From Deltaproteobacteria bacterium (GTDB lineage: Bacteria; Myxococcota_C; UBA6777): a stretch of DNA of 64,000 nt. This document shows, piece by piece, positions 6,987 to 56,776 of this stretch. Positions within the stretch are counted from its first letter, which is position 1, and each line of letters opens with the position of its first letter. Position numbers and translations under genes: made by a program. The stretch covers positions 1 through 64,000 of the forward strand of contig PCBK01000114.1 of assembly GCA_002731275.1 (NCBI GenBank), in the 5' to 3' direction. Under the pieces are notes generated by a model, which searched no databases, was not told the origin of the DNA, and saw only the letters and a program-made list of their open reading frames with translations.

Positions 6987-8792
6987 ATGAGGGATGCTTC
7001 ACAACAGAAAACACACACATCACATTTGATCTCAGCGCTCTGCATCTTTGTGGGGGCTTGGGGGTTGTTAAGCGGTTGCTCGCTTCAATCAACAAGCGTG
7101 ACAAAGGCGAGCCCTGCCCACGTCAACGGCCAAATTTTGGGGGAATCCAATATCATCCCCAAGTTTGCGAAACAACGTGATGGACGTTGGGCCCATGGGT
7201 TGCAACTTCGCCACGGTGTACGCTTGGCGGTGGCTGATGAAGCTGAGACTACAACAGCATCCTTGACGACCACAGACAAACAAGAGGATGACCGACCGCT
7301 CCCCAAGATCAAGCGCCGTAAGAAACGCCGCAAAGTGCGTCGAAAACGTCGCAAGCTACGTCGTAAAAGACGTAAACGCCGCCGAAAAGGCAAGCGACGT
7401 GCACGACGCAAGAAGAAGAAGAAAAAGAAGATCGTGCTCGTCTCCGCAAAGCGTGTCGATCAGATTCTTGCTCGTCTCCAACCTGTCGTCTTCAAACACC
7501 GCAAACTCAATTCCGAAAAATCGTTACATAAAGTACCCAGTAAAAGACCGCTCATCCCATTGCCAAAAGACCGACGATTTCGTTGGGTTGTCAAAAAGTA
7601 TCGGGGTTTGTTTTGGGGCTTTACCTGGTCGATTATGAAGAACCGAGGGCAGTTCGAAGCCCAAATGCGCCGTCATCTTAAAACGCTTGATGTTCCCGAG
7701 GAGCTGTTTCTCTTGCCGGGGATCGAGTCCAACTACAAAGTGCGACTGATCTCCTCTGTTGGTGCTGTCGGGATTTGGCAGTTTATGTATAAGACTGGCC
7801 GACGTTTTAAGCTGAATGTGAGCGCGTGGCACGATGAGCGTCGTCACATCCGCAAGGCGACACTTGGTGGCGGACGTTATCTGCGAGATCTTTATCGTCA
7901 CTTCGGTCGGTGGGAATTCGCAATCGCGGCATACAACTGTGGAAAACATTGCGTTGAACGTGCGCTCAAGCGATGTCCAAACATGACCTTTTGGAAGATG
8001 CGTGTGAGCCGTTGTGGGTTGCCTGCTGAGACCAGAGAGTACGTCGCGCGGTTCTTTGCGATGCTTCACTCACTCAAGAATCCACCTCGTCCAGAGCGTC
8101 CTATCAAGCCGAAACCTGCTGTTGTGCTCGCGTCTGTGAAGACTCCTGGCCCAATGAGCTTGATCGAGATCTCCAAAGGGACTGGTATCCCGCTCCGTAA
8201 GCTTCATTTTTACAACCCCGAGTTGTCTTCTTGGGCAACACCACCCAAAATGAAGTACGAATTGCTCGTCTCTCCGAAAGATGTTCCCAAAGTAAAGTCT
8301 TTCTTGTCCAAAAAGCGCCCCGGCGCCTACTGGATCAAAGAAGTTCCTGTACAGCCAGGTGAAGATATCCAAAAAATCGCACGTCGTCATGGACTGACTG
8401 AGAAAGAAGTTAGAGTCTACAATCGTATCTGGCGTGGACCTGTTCCAAGTCGTCGTCGATACCTGTTGCTTCCTATGCCATGGGGCAAGCAAAAGTGGCG
8501 TCGCTCTCGCAAAGTCAATCGATATCTCGCGAAGTTGACGGACAAGATTCGTCGCTTTCGTTGGCGGTATCCGGTTGGATACAAGATCCATCGCCGTGGC
8601 TTTTGCCACAGAGCACGTCGCGGTCAGTCTTTGTTTGGCATCGCGAGACGCTACGGGATGTCGAGATATCGAATCAAACTGTACAATCCTGGTGTGACAA
8701 AGGTTCGCTCAGGTGACCTGATTCGCCTGCGTTACAACGCCAAGTGTGGAAAACGCAAGCGTCCACGTCTCGCTTCCGCCTTTAGCTCGTGA
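6987..8792 (+). CDS. mltD: MltD-like membrane-bound lytic murein transglycosylase, LysM lipoprotein
   Basis: Cleaves peptidoglycan glycan strands (family inference). The chosen ATG at 6987 has GAGAGG 7 bases upstream and starts a lipoprotein signal peptide with lipobox LLSGC (Cys about 31); a 14-codon longer frame from 6945 lacks a clear site. After a variable region comes an extreme Lys/Arg tract at about residues 107-148 (around 40 residues, nearly all K or R). The SLT/goose-lysozyme-like domain has the catalytic Glu in LLPGIESNYK (Glu about 247), then SSVGAVGIWQF and AIAAYNCG. Two or more LysM modules follow (VQPGEDIQKIARRHG and ARRGQSLFGIARRYG). Single gene by spacing. The basic tract between lipid anchor and enzyme is not usual for MltD. 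Confidence 0.88.
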   Translation: MRDASQQKTHTSHLISALCIFVGAWGLLSGCSLQSTSVTKASPAHVNGQILGESNIIPKFAKQRDGRWAHGLQLRHGVRLAVADEAETTTASLTTTDKQEDDRPLPKIKRRKKRRKVRRKRRKLRRKRRKRRRKGKRRARRKKKKKKKIVLVSAKRVDQILARLQPVVFKHRKLNSEKSLHKVPSKRPLIPLPKDRRFRWVVKKYRGLFWGFTWSIMKNRGQFEAQMRRHLKTLDVPEELFLLPGIESNYKVRLISSVGAVGIWQFMYKTGRRFKLNVSAWHDERRHIRKATLGGGRYLRDLYRHFGRWEFAIAAYNCGKHCVERALKRCPNMTFWKMRVSRCGLPAETREYVARFFAMLHSLKNPPRPERPIKPKPAVVLASVKTPGPMSLIEISKGTGIPLRKLHFYNPELSSWATPPKMKYELLVSPKDVPKVKSFLSKKRPGAYWIKEVPVQPGEDIQKIARRHGLTEKEVRVYNRIWRGPVPSRRRYLLLPMPWGKQKWRRSRKVNRYLAKLTDKIRRFRWRYPVGYKIHRRGFCHRARRGQSLFGIARRYGMSRYRIKLYNPGVTKVRSGDLIRLRYNAKCGKRKRPRLASAFSS

Positions 8793-8875
8793 GTCTTTTC
8801 CTTCTATCCTCTTCACTTGGTTCGTCCCCCCACTGAAGACCAATTTCTCCTTTCCATTTGGACCGATTTTCCTCC

Positions 8876-8905
8876 TTGACAATACGCGCCCTTTTCCGCT
8901 ACATA
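8876..8905 (+). promoter_or_regulatory. candidate sigma70-type promoter for the B12 radical SAM gene
   Basis: TTGACA at 8876-8881 and TACATA at 8900-8905, separated by 18 bases, about 70 bases before the GTG/ATG of the next gene. The -35 is a perfect consensus match; the -10 is partial. No mapping data; called from sequence only. Confidence 0.45.
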
Positions 8906-8977
8906 TGGTCTGTTCTGCCCGCAATCTAGAAGATTTTTCTGGCGCGCTGCGCGCTTTTTGTCCCAACTTGGAGTGTT

Positions 8978-10291
8978 GTGACTATGCATATTTGTTTTAT
9001 CTATCCTTCTTACGTCCGCCACGCAGAGGCCAATCCAGAGATCAGAGAGGTCGTCTCCGCAGGGAGTTATCTCGGTTCGCCCACCATGAGCATCGCGCTG
9101 TTGGCGGGTTGTACACCTTCTCGACATGAGGTCTCATTTATCGACGACCGCATCGAGGAGATTCCATTTGATGCTGACTTTGATGTTGTCGCGATGCCTG
9201 TCTTCACTCCCGCTGCGAAGAGGGCGATGGAGATTGGTGATCGATTCCGTGAGCGTGGTGTGAAGGTCATTGTGGGAGGGATTTTCTCCACATTGATGCC
9301 CCAAGAGATGCTGCCCCACGTCGACGCCGTTTGCATCGGTGAAGGAGAGGCTGCTTGGGTGAAAATCCTCGAAGATATCGAGAACAATGAGCTCAAGCCT
9401 ATCTATCAGAGTAAAGACTATGTCAACCTCGCGGAGCTTCCAATGCCTCGCTGGGATCTTTACTTCCAAAAAGAAGGTCCAAATGGCTATCGTTCGATGG
9501 GACCGACTGGTGAAGTCACTGTCGATTATGCACTTCAAATCTCTCGTGGTTGTGCGCTGCGTTGTATGACCTGTGCGATTCCCGAATACATGGGGCGTAA
9601 AATGCGCTTTATGGACCCTGATTGGGTCGCGCGTAACTTCGAAGCCCTGAAGTTTGGTGGAGTCAAGCGCCACATCTCACTGACTGAAGATACTACGAGT
9701 TTCCCCACCGGGAAAGTCAGCAGCCATATGATCGAGACACTTGAAAAAGTGACCGAGATTGGCCCTCGTGTCGCCTACACAGGTGCCAGCCCTGTCCAGG
9801 CTGCGAAGGCTGTCCCTGAGTTCTATCAGTTGCTCAAAAAGCTCGACGCTGTATCTATTTACCTCGTCTTTGGTTTTGACAAGTGGTCGATGAACATCTT
9901 CAGCACTGATCCTGATCCAAAGATGTATCAGCAAACACTCGACGCAGTGAAACGTATCCACGATTCAGGTCTTGGTGTCTACGCTTCTATCCTCGCGGGC
10001 CACGACAACGAAGACGAGTCTGTCTTTGATCGCATCCTTGAGTTTACCGAAAAAGCCAAGATCGATACTGCTGAGTTTGTTATCTTGACACCCTATCCAG
10101 GAACACCCCTGTGGCGCAAGCTCAACCAAGAGGACCGACTGATCACCCGTGATTGGTCCCTCTACAACGATGCCAACCCCACATTCCAACCGGCGAATTA
10201 CAGCGCTGACCGTCTGCGAGAAGGCTACATCTACTTGTGGCACGAATTTTACCGCCGCAACGAGCGTTCACGTCACGCTATCCAGGTCTGA
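8978..10291 (+). CDS. B12-binding domain radical SAM protein
   Basis: 437 residues. N-terminal cobalamin-binding Rossmann domain (about 1-150; the glycine-rich VIVGGIFSTLM and CIGEGE motifs are typical), then a radical SAM TIM-barrel with the cluster motif CALRCMTC (CX3CX2C, near residues 193-200) that binds [4Fe-4S] and SAM. No DxHxxG cobalamin motif is visible, as in many class B enzymes. Such proteins methylate or rearrange unactivated carbons in lipids, tetrapyrroles and natural products; the substrate cannot be read here. The start is either GTG 8978 (GGAG 4 bases upstream) or ATG 8984 (GGAG 10 bases upstream). Neighbours handle lipids and glycosyl transfer, so a lipid substrate is a reasonable guess. 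Confidence 0.85.
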   Translation: MTMHICFIYPSYVRHAEANPEIREVVSAGSYLGSPTMSIALLAGCTPSRHEVSFIDDRIEEIPFDADFDVVAMPVFTPAAKRAMEIGDRFRERGVKVIVGGIFSTLMPQEMLPHVDAVCIGEGEAAWVKILEDIENNELKPIYQSKDYVNLAELPMPRWDLYFQKEGPNGYRSMGPTGEVTVDYALQISRGCALRCMTCAIPEYMGRKMRFMDPDWVARNFEALKFGGVKRHISLTEDTTSFPTGKVSSHMIETLEKVTEIGPRVAYTGASPVQAAKAVPEFYQLLKKLDAVSIYLVFGFDKWSMNIFSTDPDPKMYQQTLDAVKRIHDSGLGVYASILAGHDNEDESVFDRILEFTEKAKIDTAEFVILTPYPGTPLWRKLNQEDRLITRDWSLYNDANPTFQPANYSADRLREGYIYLWHEFYRRNERSRHAIQV

Positions 10292-29941: not shown

Positions 29942-31408
29942 ATGATGAGAAATATTCAAGTGATCTGTCATCGTCGATATCTACATATCTCCACTACGTG
30001 GGTGGTGATGTGGAGCCTCTGTGTCTTCCTCGTATCAGGTGCTTCCGAACTTTTTGCCGCGAACACGACTGCTCCGAAACGCACTGCACATACTTGGCCA
30101 ACCAAATGCGTGCCGAAACAGCCTACTGTCACTGGCGGTAAGAAGGATGGAGCTGAGTGGATGTGTACACCTGACGGGAAGTGGATGATGGCTCGATTCT
30201 GGAAGAATGGGAGCCCACATGGACCGACTGCGATGTGGCATTCAAATGGTAAAAAAGCGGCTGAAGGCTCCTATTGGAAGGGGAAAGAGCATGGGTTATG
30301 GCAGATGTGGTATCCCAATGGTCAGCCTTCACAGTTCAACTTTTACCTCTTTGGAAAGACCTACGGCCCGAAAAAACAGTGGTTTCCCAATGGGCAGTTG
30401 CAGTTTGAGGTTTATACCAAAAAGAACGTCTTTCATGGATTGCAGCGGATTTGGTACATGGACGGTACGCTCAAGTTTTCGGGGCGTTGGATCGCTGGAA
30501 AAGAGTGTGGCTCCTTTTACACTTACAACACTGAAGGGAAGCTCGCTGACAAACAAAGTTACAAGGCATGTCCAAAGACTTTAATTCCCTTTACATCGCG
30601 GAAACAGTCTTCTGCTGTGGCGCAGCGCGCTGTGTTTGTTCGGGAGCGTGCGAAGAAAGTCGGTTCGACCAAGCAGCTCGATGACAGCATGTACACCTCG
30701 CTTCAATCGTACAAAGCGCTCTTATTGGGTGGGTTCCCTGGGACGGTTGAGTTTCCTGCGTTGGTCGGTGGATTGGCCTCGTTGTTTGTCAAAAAAGGGG
30801 ACAAGGTGTTGTTGGGGTTGGACTGGCCTGTTTCGATGCAGCCTCTACTCGACGCGTTTATGCGTGACGGGAAACCCTCACACCTGCAAAAGCACTTGAT
30901 GTTTTTGAAGAAGCACCGTGACGGGCGCTCTTCCTCTGCGATGGTCTCACTCCTCCAACGACTGCGCTCGCTCAAAGGTGTGACCGTCTTTTGCACACGT
31001 CCTCTCAAGCCCACACAAGACCCAAGTGAGGGGATCGCCCGTTTGATCTTGAGCACGTATGCAAAGCACAAAGGCGCCCGCTTGCTCCTCATCGGGGACC
31101 TGTTGCAAAGCCGTGTGGATCGAGGGATGTGGGCGGCTGTGAAGCGATTGCCTGTTGGTTATCGATTGTCTGGTGGCAAGGCTTTTGCGGCTGGTGACCT
31201 GCTCGCGATTCGGGTGCGCAATCGAGACGGCAAGGCCTGGATGTGTCAGTCCACTGCAGGGTGTCGTGTCTACAATGTGCGCTTCTTTTATCCTGTCTAC
31301 CACATCGCAGCCCCGTTTGTACCGTACTTTTTAAAAGAGCGAACTTTGCTCGATGGATATCATGCGTCTCTCTACCTTGGGACGCTCACACCATCAAAGC
31401 CCCAATAA
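29942..31408 (+). CDS. MORN/YwqK-type repeat protein fused to a degenerate ChaN/Tiki-like domain
   Basis: 488 residues from ATG 29942 (TAAAGGT upstream); a longer frame overlaps the preceding gene. After a signal peptide ending LFAANTT come four or five toxin-antitoxin YwqK/MORN_2-like repeats of about 23 residues (GSPHGPTAMWHSNGKKAAEG, HGLWQMWYPNGQP and so on, about residues 70-165). The C-terminal half (about 210-480) reads like the TraB/ChaN/Tiki or EreA-like fold: LLLGGFPGTVEFPALVGGLA and VLLGLDWPVSMQPLLDA match the usual G-E-x-H-G-T and E-W/R-P blocks, but the Glu and His of the first motif are Gly and Pro. So it is probably a catalytically dead binding domain (inference). The stop at 31408 is 82 bases before the next gene. 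Confidence 0.72.
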   Translation: MMRNIQVICHRRYLHISTTWVVMWSLCVFLVSGASELFAANTTAPKRTAHTWPTKCVPKQPTVTGGKKDGAEWMCTPDGKWMMARFWKNGSPHGPTAMWHSNGKKAAEGSYWKGKEHGLWQMWYPNGQPSQFNFYLFGKTYGPKKQWFPNGQLQFEVYTKKNVFHGLQRIWYMDGTLKFSGRWIAGKECGSFYTYNTEGKLADKQSYKACPKTLIPFTSRKQSSAVAQRAVFVRERAKKVGSTKQLDDSMYTSLQSYKALLLGGFPGTVEFPALVGGLASLFVKKGDKVLLGLDWPVSMQPLLDAFMRDGKPSHLQKHLMFLKKHRDGRSSSAMVSLLQRLRSLKGVTVFCTRPLKPTQDPSEGIARLILSTYAKHKGARLLLIGDLLQSRVDRGMWAAVKRLPVGYRLSGGKAFAAGDLLAIRVRNRDGKAWMCQSTAGCRVYNVRFFYPVYHIAAPFVPYFLKERTLLDGYHASLYLGTLTPSKPQ

Positions 31409-31490
31409 TTCGAACGGACTCTTCGATGTTCTTTTTTCTCAGAGTGGCCACACTCTTTTCTGCCTACATGTCGTACAAGGAGAATGCACG

Positions 31491-32009
31491 ATGGAGAGCT
31501 GGATTTTAACCTCAACAGGGCGGAAGTTTTGTCCGTTCTCTCCTGATATGGATGCTGTCGCGATCGAGGATATCGCCCACTCTCTGAGTATGCAGTGTCG
31601 GTACAATGGTCACTGTCGTGTGTTCTACTCTGTCGCCGAACACTCCGTGCGTGTTTCCCGTATCTTGCCTGATGAATACGCGCTGTGGGGACTCTTGCAC
31701 GACGCCGCTGAGGCATATCTCTCCGATATGCCGCGCCCTGTGAAGTACCAGCTGACCGCATTCCTGGAGTATGAAGACGCGCTACTCAAGCAGCTCGCCG
31801 CGCACTTTGGGTTGTCTTGGCCCATGCCAGATGCGGTCAAAGAAGCGGATGATATCCTGCTCGTGACAGAGCTGCGAGATATCATGCCTCCAAGCCCACG
31901 GCTCAAGGAGTTCGGTGTTGAGCCTTTAGAAGAGCGCATCGTCGAGACGTTGCTCCCACAAGAAGCGAAGGCATTGTTTCTTGAGCGATTTGGTGAGCTT
32001 GCCGGCTAA
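31491..32009 (+). CDS. HD-domain phosphohydrolase (YfbR-like nucleotidase type)
   Basis: 172 residues from ATG 31491 with AAGGAGA upstream; longer open frames start within the preceding gene. HD superfamily pattern: His in YSVAEHSVRVSRI, His-Asp in GLLHDAAEAYLSDMP and a later Asp in EADDILLVTE. The AEAYLSDMPRPVK segment is typical of YfbR-type 5'-deoxynucleotidases and related HD hydrolases, which act on nucleoside monophosphates using a divalent metal. Cytoplasmic. Convergent with the DUF2063-like gene, whose frame ends four bases inside this gene's stop region. Confidence 0.87.
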   Translation: MESWILTSTGRKFCPFSPDMDAVAIEDIAHSLSMQCRYNGHCRVFYSVAEHSVRVSRILPDEYALWGLLHDAAEAYLSDMPRPVKYQLTAFLEYEDALLKQLAAHFGLSWPMPDAVKEADDILLVTELRDIMPPSPRLKEFGVEPLEERIVETLLPQEAKALFLERFGELAG

Positions 32010-32626
32010 AAGAGTCGATGGGTCAGTTTGTGTGATGATGTCGGACGAAGCCAGACGGCGAGGGTCATCCTGGTGGTCTCTGGAGGGGGCTGTTCTTTGA
32101 AGAGGGCGCGCGCAATATCACGGACAGGATAGCGAAACCACCGAACAAGCAATCGACATGATGGCTGGTTTGCCTCAATACAAGCGGCTTCGTAGGCGAG
32201 CAGGTCACCAAGCCATGCGGGAAATCTCGCGGCCAGCGCCGTGTCCTGCTTGAGTGACTGCTGGAGATACGAGGCAAAGGCCAGCGCGTCTTCCTGGTGT
32301 TTCCTGATCCCTTTGAAGTTGGTCTCTTCGGCAAATTGATGAAACAGCTTCTGGAATGTAGAGCCCATGACACCGTACGAGTATGCCAGCAGTTTTTGCA
32401 CTTGTCCTTGTCGCTTGTGGATCAATGAGTGGGAAAAGAAGTGAGTCTGTGCAGGAGGGAGTGTCGAGAGAAGTTGGATCTCTTGTGCAGAGAGACCAAA
32501 TTCTTTCCCGACCAGCTCGGGATCTTCAAAAAATCGTTGCCTGAGCGCTGTCTGTGTGTAGAGGCGGGCCAGAAGTGTTTGTACTTTTGACAAATCTGCT
32601 TGTGGTTGTGGTGTTGTGGCGTTCAT
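32006..32626 (-). CDS. DUF2063/HvfC- or SCO6045-like partner of the MNIO enzyme
   Basis: About 206 residues from ATG 32626, which overlaps the DUF692 stop as ATGA; the longer frame adds 12 codons. The N-terminal helical region starts VQTLLARLYTQTALRQRFFE and the C-terminal half has LLAYEAACIEA followed by VRWFRYPVRDI, the layout of the small proteins that accompany DUF692 enzymes (HvfC/DUF2063, TglI, MbnC and the actinobacterial SCO6045-like group). In characterised pairs the partner binds the leader or substrate peptide and delivers it to the multinuclear iron enzyme. Translational coupling supports a 1:1 complex here. Which partner subfamily it belongs to cannot be decided by eye. Confidence 0.78.
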   Translation of the reverse strand: MNATTPQPQADLSKVQTLLARLYTQTALRQRFFEDPELVGKEFGLSAQEIQLLSTLPPAQTHFFSHSLIHKRQGQVQKLLAYSYGVMGSTFQKLFHQFAEETNFKGIRKHQEDALAFASYLQQSLKQDTALAARFPAWLGDLLAYEAACIEANQPSCRLLVRWFRYPVRDIARALFKEQPPPETTRMTLAVWLRPTSSHKLTHRLF

Positions 32627-33510
32627 ATGAAGGCTTCTCTTGTCTCTGGAGTCGGCCGCCATCTGCCGTATGTGTCACCGATGGCGCGTGCTCTGGCGAG
32701 CTCTTCAGTCAACTCTGAAAAAGCGGGGATGTCTTCGTCGCGTTCGAGGATGGCGCCTTTGATTGGGAAGCGGCGTAAGACCTCATCCATCAAGTCCCAG
32801 ACCTCTGGAGGTGTCGGCTGTGAGTGTGTGTCGAGGAGGACACCGTGTTGCCAGATCCCGCCCACAAAATGCAGCTGGACCACTCTGTCTTTTGGCAACG
32901 CCTCTAGAAAGTCGATGGGGTTATATTCGTGGTTTGTCGCGTTTGTGTGGAGGTTTGTGACATCAAGGAGCAAGCCACAATCGGAGGCCTGGAGGAGTTG
33001 TCGTAGAAAATGAGCTTCATCGAGTTCACCACCTGGGATGGGCATGGCGTAAGTGATGTTTTCCAGGATGAGTGGGCGCTTGATGGTCTTTTGCACCTTC
33101 TCGATGTTGCGGCACAGGATATCGAGCGCTTGTTGGCTGAATGGCAGCGGAGAGAGGTGCCCAATGTCCACGCCGCCAGCGCGTGTAAAGCAGATGTGTT
33201 CGCTCCACCAGGGAGGATTCACTTCTTCGATCAAGGCTGCGAGGGTGTCGATGTACTGTTGATCGACGCCTTCGGCGCTGCCAAGTGAGAGATTGAGAGC
33301 ATGTGGGATCAGTGTAAAGTGTTCCTTGAGCAGCGCCAGCTCATGGCGTTTTTCGGCTGTCGCCTTCAAGTAGTGTTCGGCAGTGATCTCCAAAAAGTCG
33401 ACCTTCTCTTGGTGCAAAAAGAGATCACTGCGGAAGGGGGCACGATACCCCAATCCGACACCGAGCACCGGGAGTGAAGAGAAGCGTGAAGGGGGTTGAT
33501 GCTTATCCAC
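32623..33510 (-). CDS. DUF692 multinuclear non-heme iron oxidase (MNIO)
   Basis: About 296 residues from GTG 33510 (GTG 33513 is an alternative); the frame runs on to 33687, but that extension is the antiphase reading of the Gly/Cys tail of the preceding gene and is not coding. The family start VLGVGLGYRAPFRSDL follows within 20 residues. Metal-ligand blocks of the TIM-barrel: FLEITAEHYL, HALNLSLGS, WWSEHICF, PLILENITYA, LLLDVTNLHTNATNH, QLHFVGG, LLDTHSQPTP and ILERDEDIPAF. MNIOs oxidise Cys residues of ribosomal peptides to oxazolone/thioamide, thiooxazole and related groups (MbnB, TglH, BufB). The start lies inside the TIGR04222 gene's last codons, with GGAGGA of the tail region serving as ribosome binding site. 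Confidence 0.88.
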   Translation of the reverse strand: MDKHQPPSRFSSLPVLGVGLGYRAPFRSDLFLHQEKVDFLEITAEHYLKATAEKRHELALLKEHFTLIPHALNLSLGSAEGVDQQYIDTLAALIEEVNPPWWSEHICFTRAGGVDIGHLSPLPFSQQALDILCRNIEKVQKTIKRPLILENITYAMPIPGGELDEAHFLRQLLQASDCGLLLDVTNLHTNATNHEYNPIDFLEALPKDRVVQLHFVGGIWQHGVLLDTHSQPTPPEVWDLMDEVLRRFPIKGAILERDEDIPAFSELTEELARARAIGDTYGRWRPTPETREAFI

Positions 33511-34438
33511 CACAGCCACCACATCCTCCGCAGCCACCGCCGCAACCCCCACCGCAACTGCTTCCACAGCTGCTACTGCTGCAGCTGCTACAACTTCCGC
33601 AAGCGCCGCCACATCCAAGCCCCGTCCCGAGGTAGAACATACCTGGATAGAAGTCAAACGCCGTCCCTGCAAGGATTCCCACACCAAAGACGCTCAAGGC
33701 GAGCATCATTTCGGGAGCGCCGTCGTCATATTCCCCAAGCGCGACTCTGTCTCGTATCCTGGAGAAGGCCTCTTCCAGATCGTCGATGTAGTCTTTTCCT
33801 CTCTTTGTCATCCTACCTATGTTGACGATGGCCCCGACGAGCCAACTAAAAACGAAGCACAACATGACCAGGAACCATATCTTGTAGATCCCACGACTCA
33901 TCGCCACGAAGATCTTGTAGACAGCAAGGGTGATCAAAAAGCCCATCCCGAAAAGTCTCATCCAGTTCGCTTGCTTCTGTGCCTCCTCACTGTAAATCAG
34001 CTTTTCTTTTAACGAGAAGGTTTGAAACTCTTTGCAGAGAGGCTCCAATTTTTCTGGAAGGCCATTGTCTCCATAAATATCCGATGTTGTTCTGGGTGTT
34101 CTCATAAAGTCAAAGACTTCGTACTCCAACTCATCGAGATGTCGGGAGGGGGGATGATGTGGATCTTGGATGAACAGATCATCATCGAAGTCGAGATAGC
34201 CGCGTTGTGCGAGATCGAAGATCAAGACACGTACAATTTCATTTTCACCACCTCGGATGTACGCGATCTCCAGAGGGTCTGGATCACGGGGGACTCTCAT
34301 CCGAGGCATGGAGCGACTTGTGTCCAACCAACGCGCGAGAATCCAGACCGTGATGGCGACGCCTACACCTAGCATGACGTAAAATGTCAAAAATTGTGGC
34401 CCTGGTAGATTGGCAACGGGGTTGTCAAAGAAAGACAT
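33503..34438 (-). CDS. TIGR04222-type membrane protein with ten-Cys C-terminal tail (candidate MNIO substrate)
   Basis: 311 residues. Helix 1 at about 16-37, a cytoplasmic-looking region with EIAYIRGGENEIVRVLIFDL (the winged-helix-like signature of this family), helices at about 162-180 and 186-207, and another hydrophobic stretch at about 245-270. The last 36 residues consist only of Gly, Ser, Cys and one Ala, with Cys at 276, 280, 283, 286, 291, 295, 299, 303, 306 and 309 in CGG/CGGG spacing. ATG 34438 has GGAGGTG upstream. The stop overlaps the DUF692 start. The tail resembles a precursor core peptide carried on a membrane anchor; DUF692 and partner genes follow at once, so its Cys are the likely substrate. 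No separate leader peptide is visible. Confidence 0.85.
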   Translation of the reverse strand: MSFFDNPVANLPGPQFLTFYVMLGVGVAITVWILARWLDTSRSMPRMRVPRDPDPLEIAYIRGGENEIVRVLIFDLAQRGYLDFDDDLFIQDPHHPPSRHLDELEYEVFDFMRTPRTTSDIYGDNGLPEKLEPLCKEFQTFSLKEKLIYSEEAQKQANWMRLFGMGFLITLAVYKIFVAMSRGIYKIWFLVMLCFVFSWLVGAIVNIGRMTKRGKDYIDDLEEAFSRIRDRVALGEYDDGAPEMMLALSVFGVGILAGTAFDFYPGMFYLGTGLGCGGACGSCSSCSSSSCGSSCGGGCGGGCGGCGGCGG

Positions 34439-50210: not shown

Positions 50211-53200
50211 TTAGAAGCAGATGGCTTTGTATTCAACTTGGACGGTGGAGCCAGCCTTGGGTGGCTTGTTGAAGTTGATGCCATTGTCGACAGTGTCGTA
50301 GGTCCACGTTGTGGAGCTTGTGTTGACAACGACGCCGTCGACTTTGACAACGATGCTTTTGGGGTCTGCAGCACGTGTCAGGAAGAATTTCTTCTTCAAT
50401 CCAAAGGTCACAGAGGCGATGTTACTGAGTGTTTGTGCCCAGTTTGCGTTACAGATGGATTCAACAACACCTTGTGTCGAGTTGATCACAGCGAGGTATC
50501 GTCCGCTGGATTGTGCACCTGCGTTTCCGCCAGTGTTTCCACCACATTTGGGTTGTTTGGTCGCAGGGTCGTAGCCGATAATCCCGTTGACACGGAGTCG
50601 GTCGGGGTTACGCACGCCTTTGATATTTTTGAAGAAGTTTTGGTAGAACTGGACTGGCTGCCCTGAACTATCAGCCTCATCAGAGATGAAGATGATGGAG
50701 AGGGAGGCGTCTTTACGCAAGAAGCCTTTGTTGGCACCTGTCGTGATGAGCGGTGCTGACAACGCGAGACGCGCTCCTTCGAGACCTTGCTCATTACCAC
50801 TCCCTTGTGTCCCGACGGTCGCGTTCTGGCTGAAGATGGTTGTCAGGTTAGGGGTGTTGTTGGTCATGATCTTGGGACTGCCTCTAAATCCACCGGGTGT
50901 TGTTTGTGGACCACCGAATGGGTTACCACTCCCGCCACTTACGTCTGTCGTGGTGATCGCGATCTGGAAGTCGACGTTGAGGGTCAGCGCCCACTTGATG
51001 AACGACGTAAAGTTGTTCCCGAGGTTGCGCTGCTCATCGCCCATTGAACCGGAGTCATCGATGACAAAGAGGATGTCAATTTGAGGCTTTGTGGCCTGCT
51101 TGAAGGTGTCCGTTTGGCTCGCATCTGTCGTCCCTTTTCCTGTCAGAGGAACAGCTGTCGGTGACTGGTAGGTGACGGAGTGATGGAAGTCGAGTGTGTC
51201 AGTGTCTGTGGACGCTGCGCTGGCTTTGTAAGCGAGTTGAACTTCTGCGCTCTGGGCTGGTGCGATGGTGATTGGGAGATTGCCGAGCTGTGTGATACGG
51301 AATCCCTTGTTGCTACTTGTTCCGCTTGTTGAGCGGAATGTGACCTTGTTGAGGACCAAGTTGGTCGAGCAAGTGTTGAAGATTTGAAGCTTCTCATTTC
51401 TCGAAGAGCAGTTGATCTGGACCAATCCAAAGTTCATGACGTTGGGGACGATTTCAACGCAAGATTTGCTGGCGATACCGGAGAGTGGGACGTTGATGGT
51501 GGGGGACGCCATGTTGACTTCCATGCCGAGTGAGCCTTCAAAGGCGGGTGTACCACCAAATGGGTTTTTGGGCTTCTCGACGATCGGAAGGAAGGAGACC
51601 TCCACAGTCATTGAATTACCAGCTTTGACAGTGAGTGGGGGGCTACAGACACCTTTTGGGCAACCTTGGAGGTTGGGGAGGTGGAAGACATCGGGGCCGT
51701 TGTATGGGAGTGGGAATCCACCTTTGACAGTTGAAGTCGACATCTTGCTGATCAAACAGTCCTGTGTACCGACGTTAGACAGCTTGACTTGTTGCGTTTT
51801 GGGGCTACCAAGGACGGTCGTTCCGAAGTTGACGCGGTTGGGAGCTGCGACAAGATCACATCCACTGTCACCGATTCCGTCACCGAGGAGGGTGATCTCG
51901 ACGGTGGGGGTGTCTGGGTCGTTGCTCTTGAGCTGGACTTTACCTGTGTCAGGGACTTTGTCTTTGGGGGTGTATTTGATCGCGAGCTGCGCCACACCGT
52001 TTGGTTGCACTGTGATCTGGGCTGGCGCTTTGTCAAAGCTAAACTCTGGGGATGTACCAGGGACCATGATCGGAGCGTTGACAATGAGGGGTTTGTCACC
52101 TGTGTTTTTGATGTTGACGCTGAGTGTTTTGCTGTTAGGGACCTTGCCAAAGTTGAGCTTTGTTGGGGTCACTGAGATGTCTGGTGCGGAGACTTTTCCG
52201 ACAACCTGGACGGGCACAACAGGTCGAGCAGGATCATTACTTTTGACCTCGATGGTCCCTTTGTCTTCGGAGCCGATGCTGGGTCTGTATTGGACGGCGA
52301 CCTCTTTGCTGCTGCCGGGCTCGATGGTGACGTTGGAGATAGTTGGCATCAAGAACGCACCGGATGAACCGGCTTTGAACGCGATCTCGCTGATGTCAAG
52401 GTTGGCCGAACCAACGTTGGAGATTTTGAACTTCTTGCCGACTGTTTTTCCTGACTCGACAAATCCAAAGCTGAGCTGTTGGGGCTCTACCAGAATAGAA
52501 GGTGTCGCGAGGGCACCTTGAAGCTCTACGACATAGGGGTCTTTGCGTTTGGTTGGGTCTGGGTCTTCAGGCGCACAATTGCCTTCACATGTAAAGAGTA
52601 TTTGGCCAAGGTCGGGCTTGGTCGTCGTCGGAGTATACGTGATCTTGAACGTGAAGGATTCACCGGGCTTAAGTTCTTTTGGCGCGGTGGGCAGGCCATC
52701 TGGGTATGTGAAACCCTGGCTATTTTTTTCACCTTCTTCAATCTTTTCGATCTTGAGGATACCCGTTCCATCGTTCTTTGCAACGACTTCAATCGTTTTC
52801 GTCTTGCCTTGCTCGACGACCTTGAAGTCGACGGGGTTGGGGGTGACGACGAGTCTTTGGCTGTTGCTTTGTGCGAGGAGTTGGATGTCGAGTTTTCCAT
52901 CACTTGGAATAGTCGAATCACTTGTGACACGGATGGTACCGATGGGGGAGATGTTATCTCCAGGGGCTGTATATTTCACCTTGAGTCTGATCTCTTGGCC
53001 TTCTTCGAGCTCGTAGGGGAACTCTGTGGGCAGGCCATCGACGACGGAAAAGTAATCTTTTCCTCGTACAAGCTCGATGCTGTCGATGCGGGTCGTGCCG
53101 ACTTTGGCGATGATGCGGACCAGTTTTTCTTGTTCTTGGCCTTGTTGTGCGTCGAAGGTGACACTCTTGGGGCTGGCTTCAAGCTCGCGTGTCGAACCGA

Positions 53201-53294
53201 GATCGCGAGGTTCATCACAGTCGCATCCTACGAGCGTCCCCGTCAGACCGACAAGACTGAGCAGTAAGACAAAATAAAACTTACGAGAAAACAT
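50211..53294 (-). CDS. giant lipoprotein with choice-of-anchor D (ASH) repeats and VWA domain
   Basis: 1027 residues. Lipoprotein signal peptide with lipobox LVGC. Several ASPM-SPD-2-Hydin-type beta domains (about 30-620): for example FGKVPNSKTLSVNIKNTG and FGTTVLGSPKTQQVKLSNVG. A VWA-like domain starts near IDILFVIDDSGSMGDEQ (about residue 740; MIDAS DxSxS), with LSIIFISDEAD as a later strand, and the protein ends in a small beta domain (PKSIVVKVDGVVVNTSS ... VEYKAICF). Found on the cell surface or in the periplasm in this type of organism (inference). AGGAG precedes ATG 53294. Very similar to the next gene, especially over the VWA part and C-terminus. Confidence 0.85.
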   Translation of the reverse strand: MFSRKFYFVLLLSLVGLTGTLVGCDCDEPRDLGSTRELEASPKSVTFDAQQGQEQEKLVRIIAKVGTTRIDSIELVRGKDYFSVVDGLPTEFPYELEEGQEIRLKVKYTAPGDNISPIGTIRVTSDSTIPSDGKLDIQLLAQSNSQRLVVTPNPVDFKVVEQGKTKTIEVVAKNDGTGILKIEKIEEGEKNSQGFTYPDGLPTAPKELKPGESFTFKITYTPTTTKPDLGQILFTCEGNCAPEDPDPTKRKDPYVVELQGALATPSILVEPQQLSFGFVESGKTVGKKFKISNVGSANLDISEIAFKAGSSGAFLMPTISNVTIEPGSSKEVAVQYRPSIGSEDKGTIEVKSNDPARPVVPVQVVGKVSAPDISVTPTKLNFGKVPNSKTLSVNIKNTGDKPLIVNAPIMVPGTSPEFSFDKAPAQITVQPNGVAQLAIKYTPKDKVPDTGKVQLKSNDPDTPTVEITLLGDGIGDSGCDLVAAPNRVNFGTTVLGSPKTQQVKLSNVGTQDCLISKMSTSTVKGGFPLPYNGPDVFHLPNLQGCPKGVCSPPLTVKAGNSMTVEVSFLPIVEKPKNPFGGTPAFEGSLGMEVNMASPTINVPLSGIASKSCVEIVPNVMNFGLVQINCSSRNEKLQIFNTCSTNLVLNKVTFRSTSGTSSNKGFRITQLGNLPITIAPAQSAEVQLAYKASAASTDTDTLDFHHSVTYQSPTAVPLTGKGTTDASQTDTFKQATKPQIDILFVIDDSGSMGDEQRNLGNNFTSFIKWALTLNVDFQIAITTTDVSGGSGNPFGGPQTTPGGFRGSPKIMTNNTPNLTTIFSQNATVGTQGSGNEQGLEGARLALSAPLITTGANKGFLRKDASLSIIFISDEADSSGQPVQFYQNFFKNIKGVRNPDRLRVNGIIGYDPATKQPKCGGNTGGNAGAQSSGRYLAVINSTQGVVESICNANWAQTLSNIASVTFGLKKKFFLTRAADPKSIVVKVDGVVVNTSSTTWTYDTVDNGINFNKPPKAGSTVQVEYKAICF

Positions 53295-53463: not shown

Positions 53464-56400
53464 TTAGAAGCAGATAGCCTTATATTCGACTTGGATGGTA
53501 GAGCCTGCTTTGGGTGCTTTGTCAAAGTCGATGCTGTTGTTGATGGGGTCGTAAGTCCACGTCGTTGCACTCGTATTGACGACGACGCCGTCGACTTTGA
53601 CGACGATGCTTTTGGGGTCTGCGGCACGTGTCAGGAAGAATTGTCTCTTAAGACCAAAGATGACGGTCCCGATATTGCTGAGTGTTTGTGACCAGTTGGC
53701 GTTACAGATTGATGCGACCACACCACCTGTGGATTGGATCATCGAGAGGTAGCGACCTGTTGAGACGCCCTGGCCACCGCTTCCCTGGCATTGATTTTTC
53801 TTTGTGGCAGGATCATAGCCGATGATCCCGTGGAAGCGGAAGAGATCTTTGTTTCTCACGCCTTTGATGCCGAGGAAGAAGTTGAGGTAGTACTGGACTG
53901 GCTGCGATGAGCCATCGGCCTCATCGGAGATGACGATGACCGAGAGGGAGGCGTCTTTGCGCAAGAAGCCTTTGTTGGTCCCTGTGGTGATCGTCGGTGG
54001 TGACAATGCGAGTCTTGCAGCTTCAAGTCCTCGTTCATCAGAGCTACCGCCTGTCCCAACCGTTGCGTTCTGACGGAAGATGGTCTCCAGGTTGGGGGTG
54101 TTGTTGGTCATGATCTTGGGACTGCCGTACAACTCTCCAGGGCCGCCTGTTCCGCCAAGTGGGTTGTTTTTCTTGACGTCTGTCGTCGTGACCCCAATCT
54201 GGAAGTCGACGTTGAGGGTCAACGCCCACTTAATGAATGACGTGAAGTTGTTCCCGAGACTTTGCTGTTCATTTCCCATCGATCCGGAGTTATCGACGAC
54301 AAAGAGGATGTCAATTTTGGGGCGCTTGGACTGCTTGAAGGTGTCTGTTTGATCGGCTGTTGTCGTCTCGTTCGCTGCGAGCGGGATCGCCAACGGAGAT
54401 TGGATGGTGACGGTGTGTGTCAGGTTGATCGCGTCCTGAGCCTGATTGACAGGCGCCTTCGCTGTGTACTTTAGGCTGATTTGTGCGCTCTGCAAGGGTT
54501 TGATCGTGAAGGGGAGATTGTCCATCTTGACGATCGAGAAACCTTCGCTGCTCTGCGTCGAGTTGGTCGAGGTAAACTCGAACTTACTGACTGTGATGTC
54601 CTTGTCACAGGTGTTGTATATGTCGAGTTTTTCGTTTCTCGAAGAGCAGTTTGTTTGGACCAAGCCAAAGTCGATGGTCGTGGGGACCGCTTCGATGCAC
54701 GATTTGGCAGGGAGTCCCCTGAGGGGAACCGACTTTTTGGAGGGAGTCGCGTTGATCGCGAGGTCGAGACCACCTGTGAAGTCGTTTGAGCCTCCGATGG
54801 GGAGTTTGTTTTCCTTTTCGAGCAGCGGCGTGAAGCTCACGTCGATGGTGATGGAGTTACCTGCTTTGACTTCGAGCGGTGGATTACAAGTCCCTGTTGG
54901 ACAGCCGGCTGGCAAACTCGGCAAGACAAAGGGGTTGGGACCTTGGTATGCGACGGGGAAAATACCCCTGTCCACAAATGTCGTGATCGTGCTGATTTTG
55001 CAATCGACGTTTCCTTGGTTGGTAAATTTGACGGACACAGTCTTGGTTTTTCCGAGGACAATGGTGCCGAAGTTGACCTGTGTGGGGGCAGGGACGAGAT
55101 CACAGGCGTTGAGACCGGTGCCTTGTCCTTTGAGGATCACTTCAACTGTTGGGGTGTCTGGATCGTTGCTTTTGATTTGGATTTTGCCGACATCATCCAC
55201 TTTGTCCTTCGGTGTGTACACGACCGCGAGTTTTTCGACGCCATTGGGTGGGATGGTCAACTGTGTCGGTGCCTTCTCAAAGCTGAACTCAGGGGACGTC
55301 CCCGCGACCATTACCGCGGGGTCGACAACGAGGGGTTTGTCGCCTGTATTGGTGATGTTGACGTTGAGCACCTTCTTGGCACCAACACGTCCGAAGTTGA
55401 GAGTTGTTGGAGAGACTTGGATGTTGGGAGCCGAGACTTTCCCGATGAGCTGGACGGGCACAACAGGACGAGCGCCGTCATTGCTCTTGACCTCGATGGT
55501 CCCTTTGTCTTCGGAGCCGGTGCTGGGTCTGTATTGGACGGCGACCTCTTTGCTGCTGCCGGGCTCAATGATGATGTTGGAGATGGTCGGCATCAGGAAC
55601 GCACCAGACGAACCGGCTTTTAAGGCAATCTCACTGATTTCGAGAAGCGCGCTGCCGTTGTTGGTCATCTTGAACTTTTTGCTGACTGTATTGCCTGCCT
55701 CTACGACGCCGAAGTCCAATGTCAGAGGCTCGACTTTCAAGGAGGGCGCGGCGAGCGTCCCGTTGAGCTTGAGCAGGAACGGGTCTTTTCGATTGGTCGC
55801 TTCTGGGTCGACGGGTGAGCAATTGCCTTTGCAGCTAAAGTCGAGTGTGCCTAAGTCGGGTTTTCGTGGTGTGGGTTTGTAGGTGACCTTAAAGGTGAAG
55901 GTCTCGCCGGGCGCGACCTCTTTGGGAACTTTTGGCAACCCTTCAAAGGAAAACGCGGGGCTGTTACTTGCGCCGGGGACGATGTTTTCCATCTTGAGAA
56001 TGGCGCTACCGATGTTTTCACCTGTGACGGTGATGGTCTTGCTCTCGCCATCTTTGACCGCTCCGAAGCTGACGGGGTTGGGGGTCAGCCTCAGCCGTTG
56101 ATCGTTACTTTGTGCGAGGAGCTGGATGTCGAGCTTGCCCTCTGCTGGGATGCTCGAGTCACTCAGTGCACGAATTGTCCCAATAGGGCTTGCGTTTCCG
56201 CCAGGTGCTTTGTACTTGACCTTGAGTCTGATCTCCTGACCTTCTTCGAGGTCAAAGGGGAACTCTGTGGGGAGACCATCGACGATGGAAAAGTAATCTT
56301 TTCCTCTGATCAGCTCGATACTTTCGATACGAGTCGTACCGACTTTGGCGATGATGCGGACGAGTTTTTCTTGCTCTTCACCTTCTTGTGCGTCGAAGGT

Positions 56401-56535
56401 GAGGCTGTCAGGGCTTGCTTCCAAGTGTCTGGTACCACCGAGACCGCTTTCAGCGGGGCATTCACAGGCAGAGAGCGCCCACACTGCCAGGATGGCGAAC
56501 ATGAAATACATACGTATACGTCTGGGGGAGAGCAT
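53464..56535 (-). CDS. giant ASH/VWA lipoprotein, tandem paralogue
   Basis: About 1023 residues from ATG 56535, which has AAAGGAGAAA upstream; the frame opens further to 56598. Lipobox ALSAC. Same domain order as its neighbour: ASH repeats (FGAVKDGESKTITVTGEN, FGRVGAKKVLNVNITNTG), VWA domain IDILFVVDNSGSMGNEQ, then SIVVKVDGVVVNTSATTWTY and ending VEYKAICF. The strong identity in protein and DNA to the 50.2-53.3 kb gene indicates a fairly recent tandem duplication. Gap between the two genes is about 170 bases. Possible adhesin, receptor or matrix protein; role not known. Confidence 0.85.
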   Translation of the reverse strand: MLSPRRIRMYFMFAILAVWALSACECPAESGLGGTRHLEASPDSLTFDAQEGEEQEKLVRIIAKVGTTRIESIELIRGKDYFSIVDGLPTEFPFDLEEGQEIRLKVKYKAPGGNASPIGTIRALSDSSIPAEGKLDIQLLAQSNDQRLRLTPNPVSFGAVKDGESKTITVTGENIGSAILKMENIVPGASNSPAFSFEGLPKVPKEVAPGETFTFKVTYKPTPRKPDLGTLDFSCKGNCSPVDPEATNRKDPFLLKLNGTLAAPSLKVEPLTLDFGVVEAGNTVSKKFKMTNNGSALLEISEIALKAGSSGAFLMPTISNIIIEPGSSKEVAVQYRPSTGSEDKGTIEVKSNDGARPVVPVQLIGKVSAPNIQVSPTTLNFGRVGAKKVLNVNITNTGDKPLVVDPAVMVAGTSPEFSFEKAPTQLTIPPNGVEKLAVVYTPKDKVDDVGKIQIKSNDPDTPTVEVILKGQGTGLNACDLVPAPTQVNFGTIVLGKTKTVSVKFTNQGNVDCKISTITTFVDRGIFPVAYQGPNPFVLPSLPAGCPTGTCNPPLEVKAGNSITIDVSFTPLLEKENKLPIGGSNDFTGGLDLAINATPSKKSVPLRGLPAKSCIEAVPTTIDFGLVQTNCSSRNEKLDIYNTCDKDITVSKFEFTSTNSTQSSEGFSIVKMDNLPFTIKPLQSAQISLKYTAKAPVNQAQDAINLTHTVTIQSPLAIPLAANETTTADQTDTFKQSKRPKIDILFVVDNSGSMGNEQQSLGNNFTSFIKWALTLNVDFQIGVTTTDVKKNNPLGGTGGPGELYGSPKIMTNNTPNLETIFRQNATVGTGGSSDERGLEAARLALSPPTITTGTNKGFLRKDASLSVIVISDEADGSSQPVQYYLNFFLGIKGVRNKDLFRFHGIIGYDPATKKNQCQGSGGQGVSTGRYLSMIQSTGGVVASICNANWSQTLSNIGTVIFGLKRQFFLTRAADPKSIVVKVDGVVVNTSATTWTYDPINNSIDFDKAPKAGSTIQVEYKAICF

Positions 56536-56776
56536 CCGTTTCTCCTTTACAAAATGCGATGAGATCATTCTATGAATTGTATGAGTATCGACGATCAACA
56601 GGATTTGTTCCGGTCTTTTACGTCCGAGTGGGAACTTTGTCCGATCAAAGGACGAACGTCGTCGTACTTTTTGTGCATGAAATGATCAACGGTATAGCAT
56701 ATTTCGCTGAATGATGCGAGAGGTGATTTCTTGAAATATTGGAAGGATAGAGGGGGAGCAAGAGGAAGGTCTCGGC

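Follow-up and report, generated by a model that had tools for sequence, protein, structure and literature searches.

A TIGR04222-linked clade of MNIO enzymes and its candidate substrate, a membrane-carried cysteine tail

The 64-kb stretch of DNA analysed here (the window) carries a three-gene locus that we interpret, with confidence a little above even, as a membrane-anchored RiPP-like system, in which an MNIO enzyme would oxidise a cysteine-rich tail that stays attached to the membrane. Most of the confidence in this interpretation is carried by the step in which the MNIO modifies the tail, a step that we infer from sequence comparisons. What is new here is a single MNIO clade that spans approximately eight phyla by record names and keeps the same gene order with TIGR04222 in 65 of 80 loci. 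Peptides are the substrates for which MNIO enzymes are mainly known; should this clade prove to act on the tail of an integral membrane protein, the range of the MNIOs would be extended to proteins and, given how widespread the trio is, any function would apply broadly.

The sequence-only reading had taken the system to be undescribed, a claim that does not hold. Antoine et al. 2025 (PMC12452194), in the sections available to us, reported the TIGR04222-MNIO association from sequence surveys, proposed that the C-terminal Cys-rich segments of a subset of TIGR04222 proteins are MNIO-modified, and defined PME-type 2 partners, which they predicted for 10% or more of the TIGR04222 clusters; most TIGR04222 proteins described there are from Actinomycetota. 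A categorically new system is thereby ruled out: as far as those sections go, this kind of system has already been proposed in silico, and the window locus adds a member with some unreported variants. No report of MNIO-dependent modification of TIGR04222 family proteins was found in the literature consulted on the family, to the extent that it was accessible.

All three genes lie on the minus strand. The TIGR04222 membrane protein (311 aa) is read from 34438 to 33503, the MNIO (DUF692, MbnB_TglH_ChrH) enzyme (295 aa, GTG start) from 33510 to 32623, and the MNIO partner (206 aa) from 32626 to 32006. GGAGG precedes the ATG of the TIGR04222 gene, whose frame shares eight bases, GTGGATAA, with that of the MNIO, provided that the GTG start is correct; the MNIO and partner frames share the four bases ATGA. 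A nucleotidyltransferase-like gene (35221 to 34469, 250 aa) is located 30 bp upstream of the trio on the same strand. These ORF coordinates bear out the three consecutive genes with 8- and 4-base overlaps described in the sequence-only reading, and its count of ten cysteines in the last 36 residues of the TIGR04222-type protein is exact. An Rfam scan of the 64-kb window gave no match, and scans for promoters and terminators around the trio returned counts close to those of shuffled sequence. A YfbR-like gene (31353-32009, plus strand; below the cut-off) converges on the trio, its end sharing four bases with the end of the partner gene. Elsewhere in the window, two long adjacent minus-strand genes (50211-53294 and 53464-56598) are clearly alike in sequence and appear to be tandem duplicates.

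The membrane protein matched the NCBIfam profile TIGR04222 with 86.5 bits (cut-off 43) over the whole profile (1-229). Using an AF2 model together with hydropathy, we delineated TM1, an alpha/beta domain (residues ~55-144), TM2, TM3, an ambiguous last hydrophobic segment (~242-262) and a disordered tail; the model had a pLDDT of 88, with most of the tail below 50. A fold search with this model returned nothing at E<=0.001, and we therefore assign no fold name to the TM1-TM2 domain. The tail, the presumed modification substrate, comprises the last 36 residues (33506..33613, minus strand), CGGACGSCSSCSSSSCGSSCGGGCGGGCGGCGGCGG, in which ten Cys are accompanied by Gly and Ser with one Ala. At the window background of 1.1% Cys, ten in 36 residues would arise by chance with a probability of ~6e-12. 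Across the tails of 76 relatives, Cys was followed by Gly or Ser at 446 of 456 positions (98%). An apparent TIGR04222-MNIO fusion in one relative (L102) proved to be a frame artefact, the tail ending normally in another frame.

The window MNIO scored 291.7 bits against Pfam PF05114 (MbnB_TglH_ChrH; cut-off 25), which assigns it to the MNIOs. With the iron ligands of TglH (PMC10880893) as the reference for site mapping, the window enzyme was seen to have the full set of Fe ligands (H70, H105, E150, D183, H214 and E256) and site 3 residues (N186, D227 and H229), and the equivalents of all nine TglH ligands were conserved in 94-100% of aligned relatives. Scores against the NCBIfam equivalogs for BufB/HvfB (239.6 and 208.6 bits) fell below the respective cut-offs of 310 and 360. 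A phylogeny, which the sequence-only reading had called for, placed the window DUF692 protein in a TIGR04222-linked clade (94/89) made up of all sampled TIGR04222-linked enzymes, that of locus L097 and those of four tail-less loci. Lying outside this clade were the bufferin-like enzymes found in the window's own family, HvfB-like 3bww, MbnB, TglH and other cyanobacterial-phylum MNIOs; the long branches of MbnB and TglH leave their exact places unsure, and the bootstrap is not fully settled. A search of viral contigs found no relatives of the window MNIO.

The AF2 model of the partner (pLDDT 95) comprises an N-terminal Os1348/NHLP-like helical domain, DUF2063-like helices and, at the C-terminus, a short beta part that probably represents a truncated RRE. 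Its best PDB matches were TglI 8hci/8hi7 (Z 12.3 over 183 residues; Foldseek, VIA-align); NGO1945 3dee was matched with Z 9.1, and the N-terminal part matched Os1348 6lk7 (Z 9.3, residues 9-72) and, by fold comparison, the SonA leader domains. The window partner matched NF038399 (Os1348 family, NHLP clan) below its cut-off, and 37 of the 42 members of the partner alignment matched the same profile at E 0.01 or better. Pfam DUF2063, the PME-type 1 signature, gave no match in the window partner and matched 1 of 42 relatives (E 0.036). The PME-type 2 class is defined by structural likeness to NGO1945 (3dee) and TglI without the DUF2063 signature, and by this published structural criterion, applied here with Foldseek and VIA-align where PMC12452194, in its accessible part, used HHpred and AlphaFold models, the predicted fold of the window partner makes it PME-type 2. 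The earlier DUF2063 label is therefore apt at the level of fold and does not extend to a Pfam match.

Our genome-contig scan covered the 80 nearest MNIO loci and was seeded with the window's clade, the counts thus describing that clade and not MNIOs overall; TIGR04222 was detected with profiles that drew on the window's family plus two distant TIGR04222 proteins. Among the neighbours of these DUF692 genes, where the sequence-only reading had proposed to look, a TIGR04222 gene lay upstream on the same strand in the 65 loci mentioned above; the complete trio was found in 64 loci and a partner in 76. The 12 partner-bearing loci without a trio comprised two at contig ends, with the TIGR04222 gene elsewhere in their genomes, two split loci, one truncated, one coding for a small peptide, and six in which none was found. 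One of the split loci is from Nostoc (L052), which keeps both the MNIO-partner pair and a TIGR04222 gene, in non-adjacent positions. In the six loci with none found, which are Verrucomicrobia-type, MNIO and partner were present, no TIGR04222 gene was found in the genome, and no Cys-Gly tail ORF was seen among the pattern matches read. Across 15 genomes, the CGGCGG tail pattern gave mostly out-of-place matches, not every one of which was read, and a reversed-pattern control was approximately as frequent in several. The phyla named in the records are Cyanobacteriota, Verrucomicrobiota, Planctomycetota, Acidobacteriota, Armatimonadota, Pseudomonadota, Actinomycetota and Myxococcota, several of the genomes being MAGs with doubtful labels.

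Within the window's family, three genomes carried TIGR04222, the clade MNIO and the partner, and two sister genomes were without TIGR04222 and without the partner; in one of the three (G003), a nucleotidyltransferase-TIGR04222 pair and an MNIO-partner pair were both kept on separate contigs. Among the families that neighbour clustering listed, no accessory gene recurred from lineage to lineage; synteny was lineage-bound, Methylocystis with its heme A synthase and pqq genes being one example. The window's own genome contains a second MNIO cluster (L017, contig C123, ~7380-9567) with a small Cys-containing precursor-like ORF, an MNIO and a DUF2063-like partner, which is bufferin-like by eye and by tree and includes a putative precursor. 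A DUF2207-type protein in L021 (6879-8561, minus strand) ends in a CHSA repeat with nine Cys in its last 40 residues, and no MNIO was found in that genome.

The nucleotidyltransferase-like protein carries the motif GG/GS...SDVN, in which Asn replaces the Asp of canonical enzymes (DVN vs DxD), and may possibly be inactive; its relatives gave weak PF01909 matches. Homologous genes adjoin TIGR04222 in five loci, including L169, whose genome shows no MNIO, and the tail peptide in L097. On this neighbourhood evidence, the gene is a candidate fourth member of the system in some lineages. No mention of this gene, or of the minimal-anchor peptide of the clade, was found in the accessible part of PMC12452194. 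As separate observations, two cyanobacterial genomes have a short nucleotidyltransferase-type gene next to an MNIO from a different clade (L176, 5846-6196; L177, 4408-4758), and a conserved 400-422-aa gene with a weak RelA_SpoT match (E 2.6e-4) adjoins MNIO or nucleotidyltransferase-TIGR04222 genes in two sister genomes (L035, 7585-8853; L016, 2446-3648).

Among 291 genomes of the cyanobacterial phylum, 13 contained TIGR04222 and 16 an MNIO; all five clade MNIOs adjoined a TIGR04222-type Cys-tail gene, versus none of the 13 other MNIO loci inspected (Fisher p 1e-4, a figure that ignores the relatedness of the genomes). Such tight co-occurrence within the clade argues against an alternative that we consider unlikely, wherein the tail is an unmodified metal-binding or disulfide-forming segment and the MNIO and partner, merely co-transcribed with it, act elsewhere on the TIGR04222 protein or on another substrate. 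The same holds for the higher tail Cys counts beside an MNIO in the cyanobacterial sample, a rough comparison among related genomes (p 0.015, n=14), and for two loci in which little but the tail is retained. In L072, the protein, 168 aa long when read from the homologous start, has lost the TM1-TM2 domain and retains three predicted helices and the tail; in L097, an MNIO, a partner and a nucleotidyltransferase-like protein are encoded alongside a peptide of 65 aa that has a single helix and eight Cys. Retention of the Cys tail where the remainder shrinks or is replaced points to the tail as the probable substrate, and both products are small enough for practical testing of tail modification. 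The unmodified-tail alternative is favoured, conversely, by Cys tails on TIGR04222 proteins in MNIO-less genomes (six, seven and six Cys in the last 40 residues in G326, G631 and G545), by a DUF2207-type relative in G290 whose His/Cys repeat tail (CHSA) looks plainly metal-binding, by a nucleotidyltransferase-TIGR04222 pair in G449, in which we found no MNIO, and by the six MNIO-partner loci lacking a found tail protein. Since Cys tails also occur in MNIO-less genomes, many of whose TIGR04222 proteins are longer, a Cys tail is not proof of modification; either the tail would be useful without the enzyme or those tails differ.

As for the side of the membrane on which the tail lies, the last hydrophobic segment of full-length TIGR04222 proteins is marginal by a crude hydropathy measure (median KD19 1.65, 54% >=1.6) and broken in the AF2 model. 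In the short variants, the last helix is separated from the tail by a stretch with several Arg/Lys (L072) or the sole helix is followed by a Lys (L097), so the positive-inside rule would favour a cytoplasmic tail. By contrast, the sections of Antoine et al. 2025 (PMC12452194) available to us predict the C-terminal Cys-rich segments to be periplasmic. The short variants and the published prediction thus disagree on tail sidedness.

Under the membrane-anchored RiPP-like reading, a cytosolic MNIO-partner complex would bind the nascent or inserted TIGR04222 protein and oxidise several tail cysteines; were the tail periplasmic, as published, the cytosolic enzyme would have to act before export. By analogy with HvfB and BufB, we guess that the product would most likely be a 5-thiooxazole or a related Cys-derived heterocycle, and analogy likewise suggests that the modified tail would stay on the inner membrane without release and might bind soft metal ions such as copper. 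The trio linkage, the contrasting adjacency in the cyanobacterial sample, the tail retention, the joint presence of the separated gene pairs in G003 and L052 and the joint absence of TIGR04222 and partner from the two sister genomes, the complete iron ligands and the TglI-like partner fold all support this reading, and the Cys tails without an MNIO and the six Verrucomicrobia-type loci without a found tail weaken it. The proposal of the sequence-only reading that the MNIO acts on a membrane-carried Cys tail is accordingly strengthened by the clade phylogeny and by the tails kept in L072 and L097, and weakened by those in MNIO-less genomes. More tentatively, the oxidised tail may be permanently anchored and modified in the cytoplasm, on anchors that are interchangeable (the 311-aa protein, the truncated form and the 65-aa one-helix peptide), a leader-like NHLP domain being provided in trans by the partner. 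A classical RiPP route, in which the modified tail would instead be cut off to give a free peptide and the membrane protein would act as a carrier-leader, strikes us as distinctly improbable: most characterised MNIO substrates are precursor peptides (PMC12452194, accessible part) and the low-confidence, probably disordered C-terminal tail could be reached by a protease, but no protease family was prominent among the recurrent neighbours listed (read by eye, part annotated), and L097 keeps its anchor even in minimal form.

Among known systems, the TIGR04222 clusters of Antoine et al., as described in the sections available to us, resemble the window in having the same three protein types, a Cys-rich C-terminal segment as presumed substrate, precursors without a Sec signal peptide and partners without the DUF2063 signature. 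Those clusters are mostly from Actinomycetota with a partner in at least 10%, whereas most members of the present clade are non-actinobacterial and almost all of its loci include a partner. The bufferins and oxazolins (BufABC, HvfABC), for which thiooxazole chemistry is known, likewise combine an MNIO and a partner acting on Cys, and Cys precedes Gly in their EGKCG motif as in the tails here. Unlike the window system, however, their precursors carry Sec signal peptides and their partners are PME-type 1 (PMC12452194, accessible part), and the window MNIO falls below both BufB/HvfB cut-offs and in a separate clade. With TglHI (3-thiaglutamate), the window shares a partner model that matches TglI over its whole length and an MNIO that has the TglH iron ligands; TglH is a distant MNIO acting on the C-terminal Cys of a peptide scaffold, whereas the window presents many tail Cys on a membrane protein. 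Finally, the N-terminal part of the window partner has the fold of the Os1348/SonA leader-type domains, with matches to NHLP-clan profiles, but here the leader-type domain resides in the partner protein rather than in the presumed substrate.
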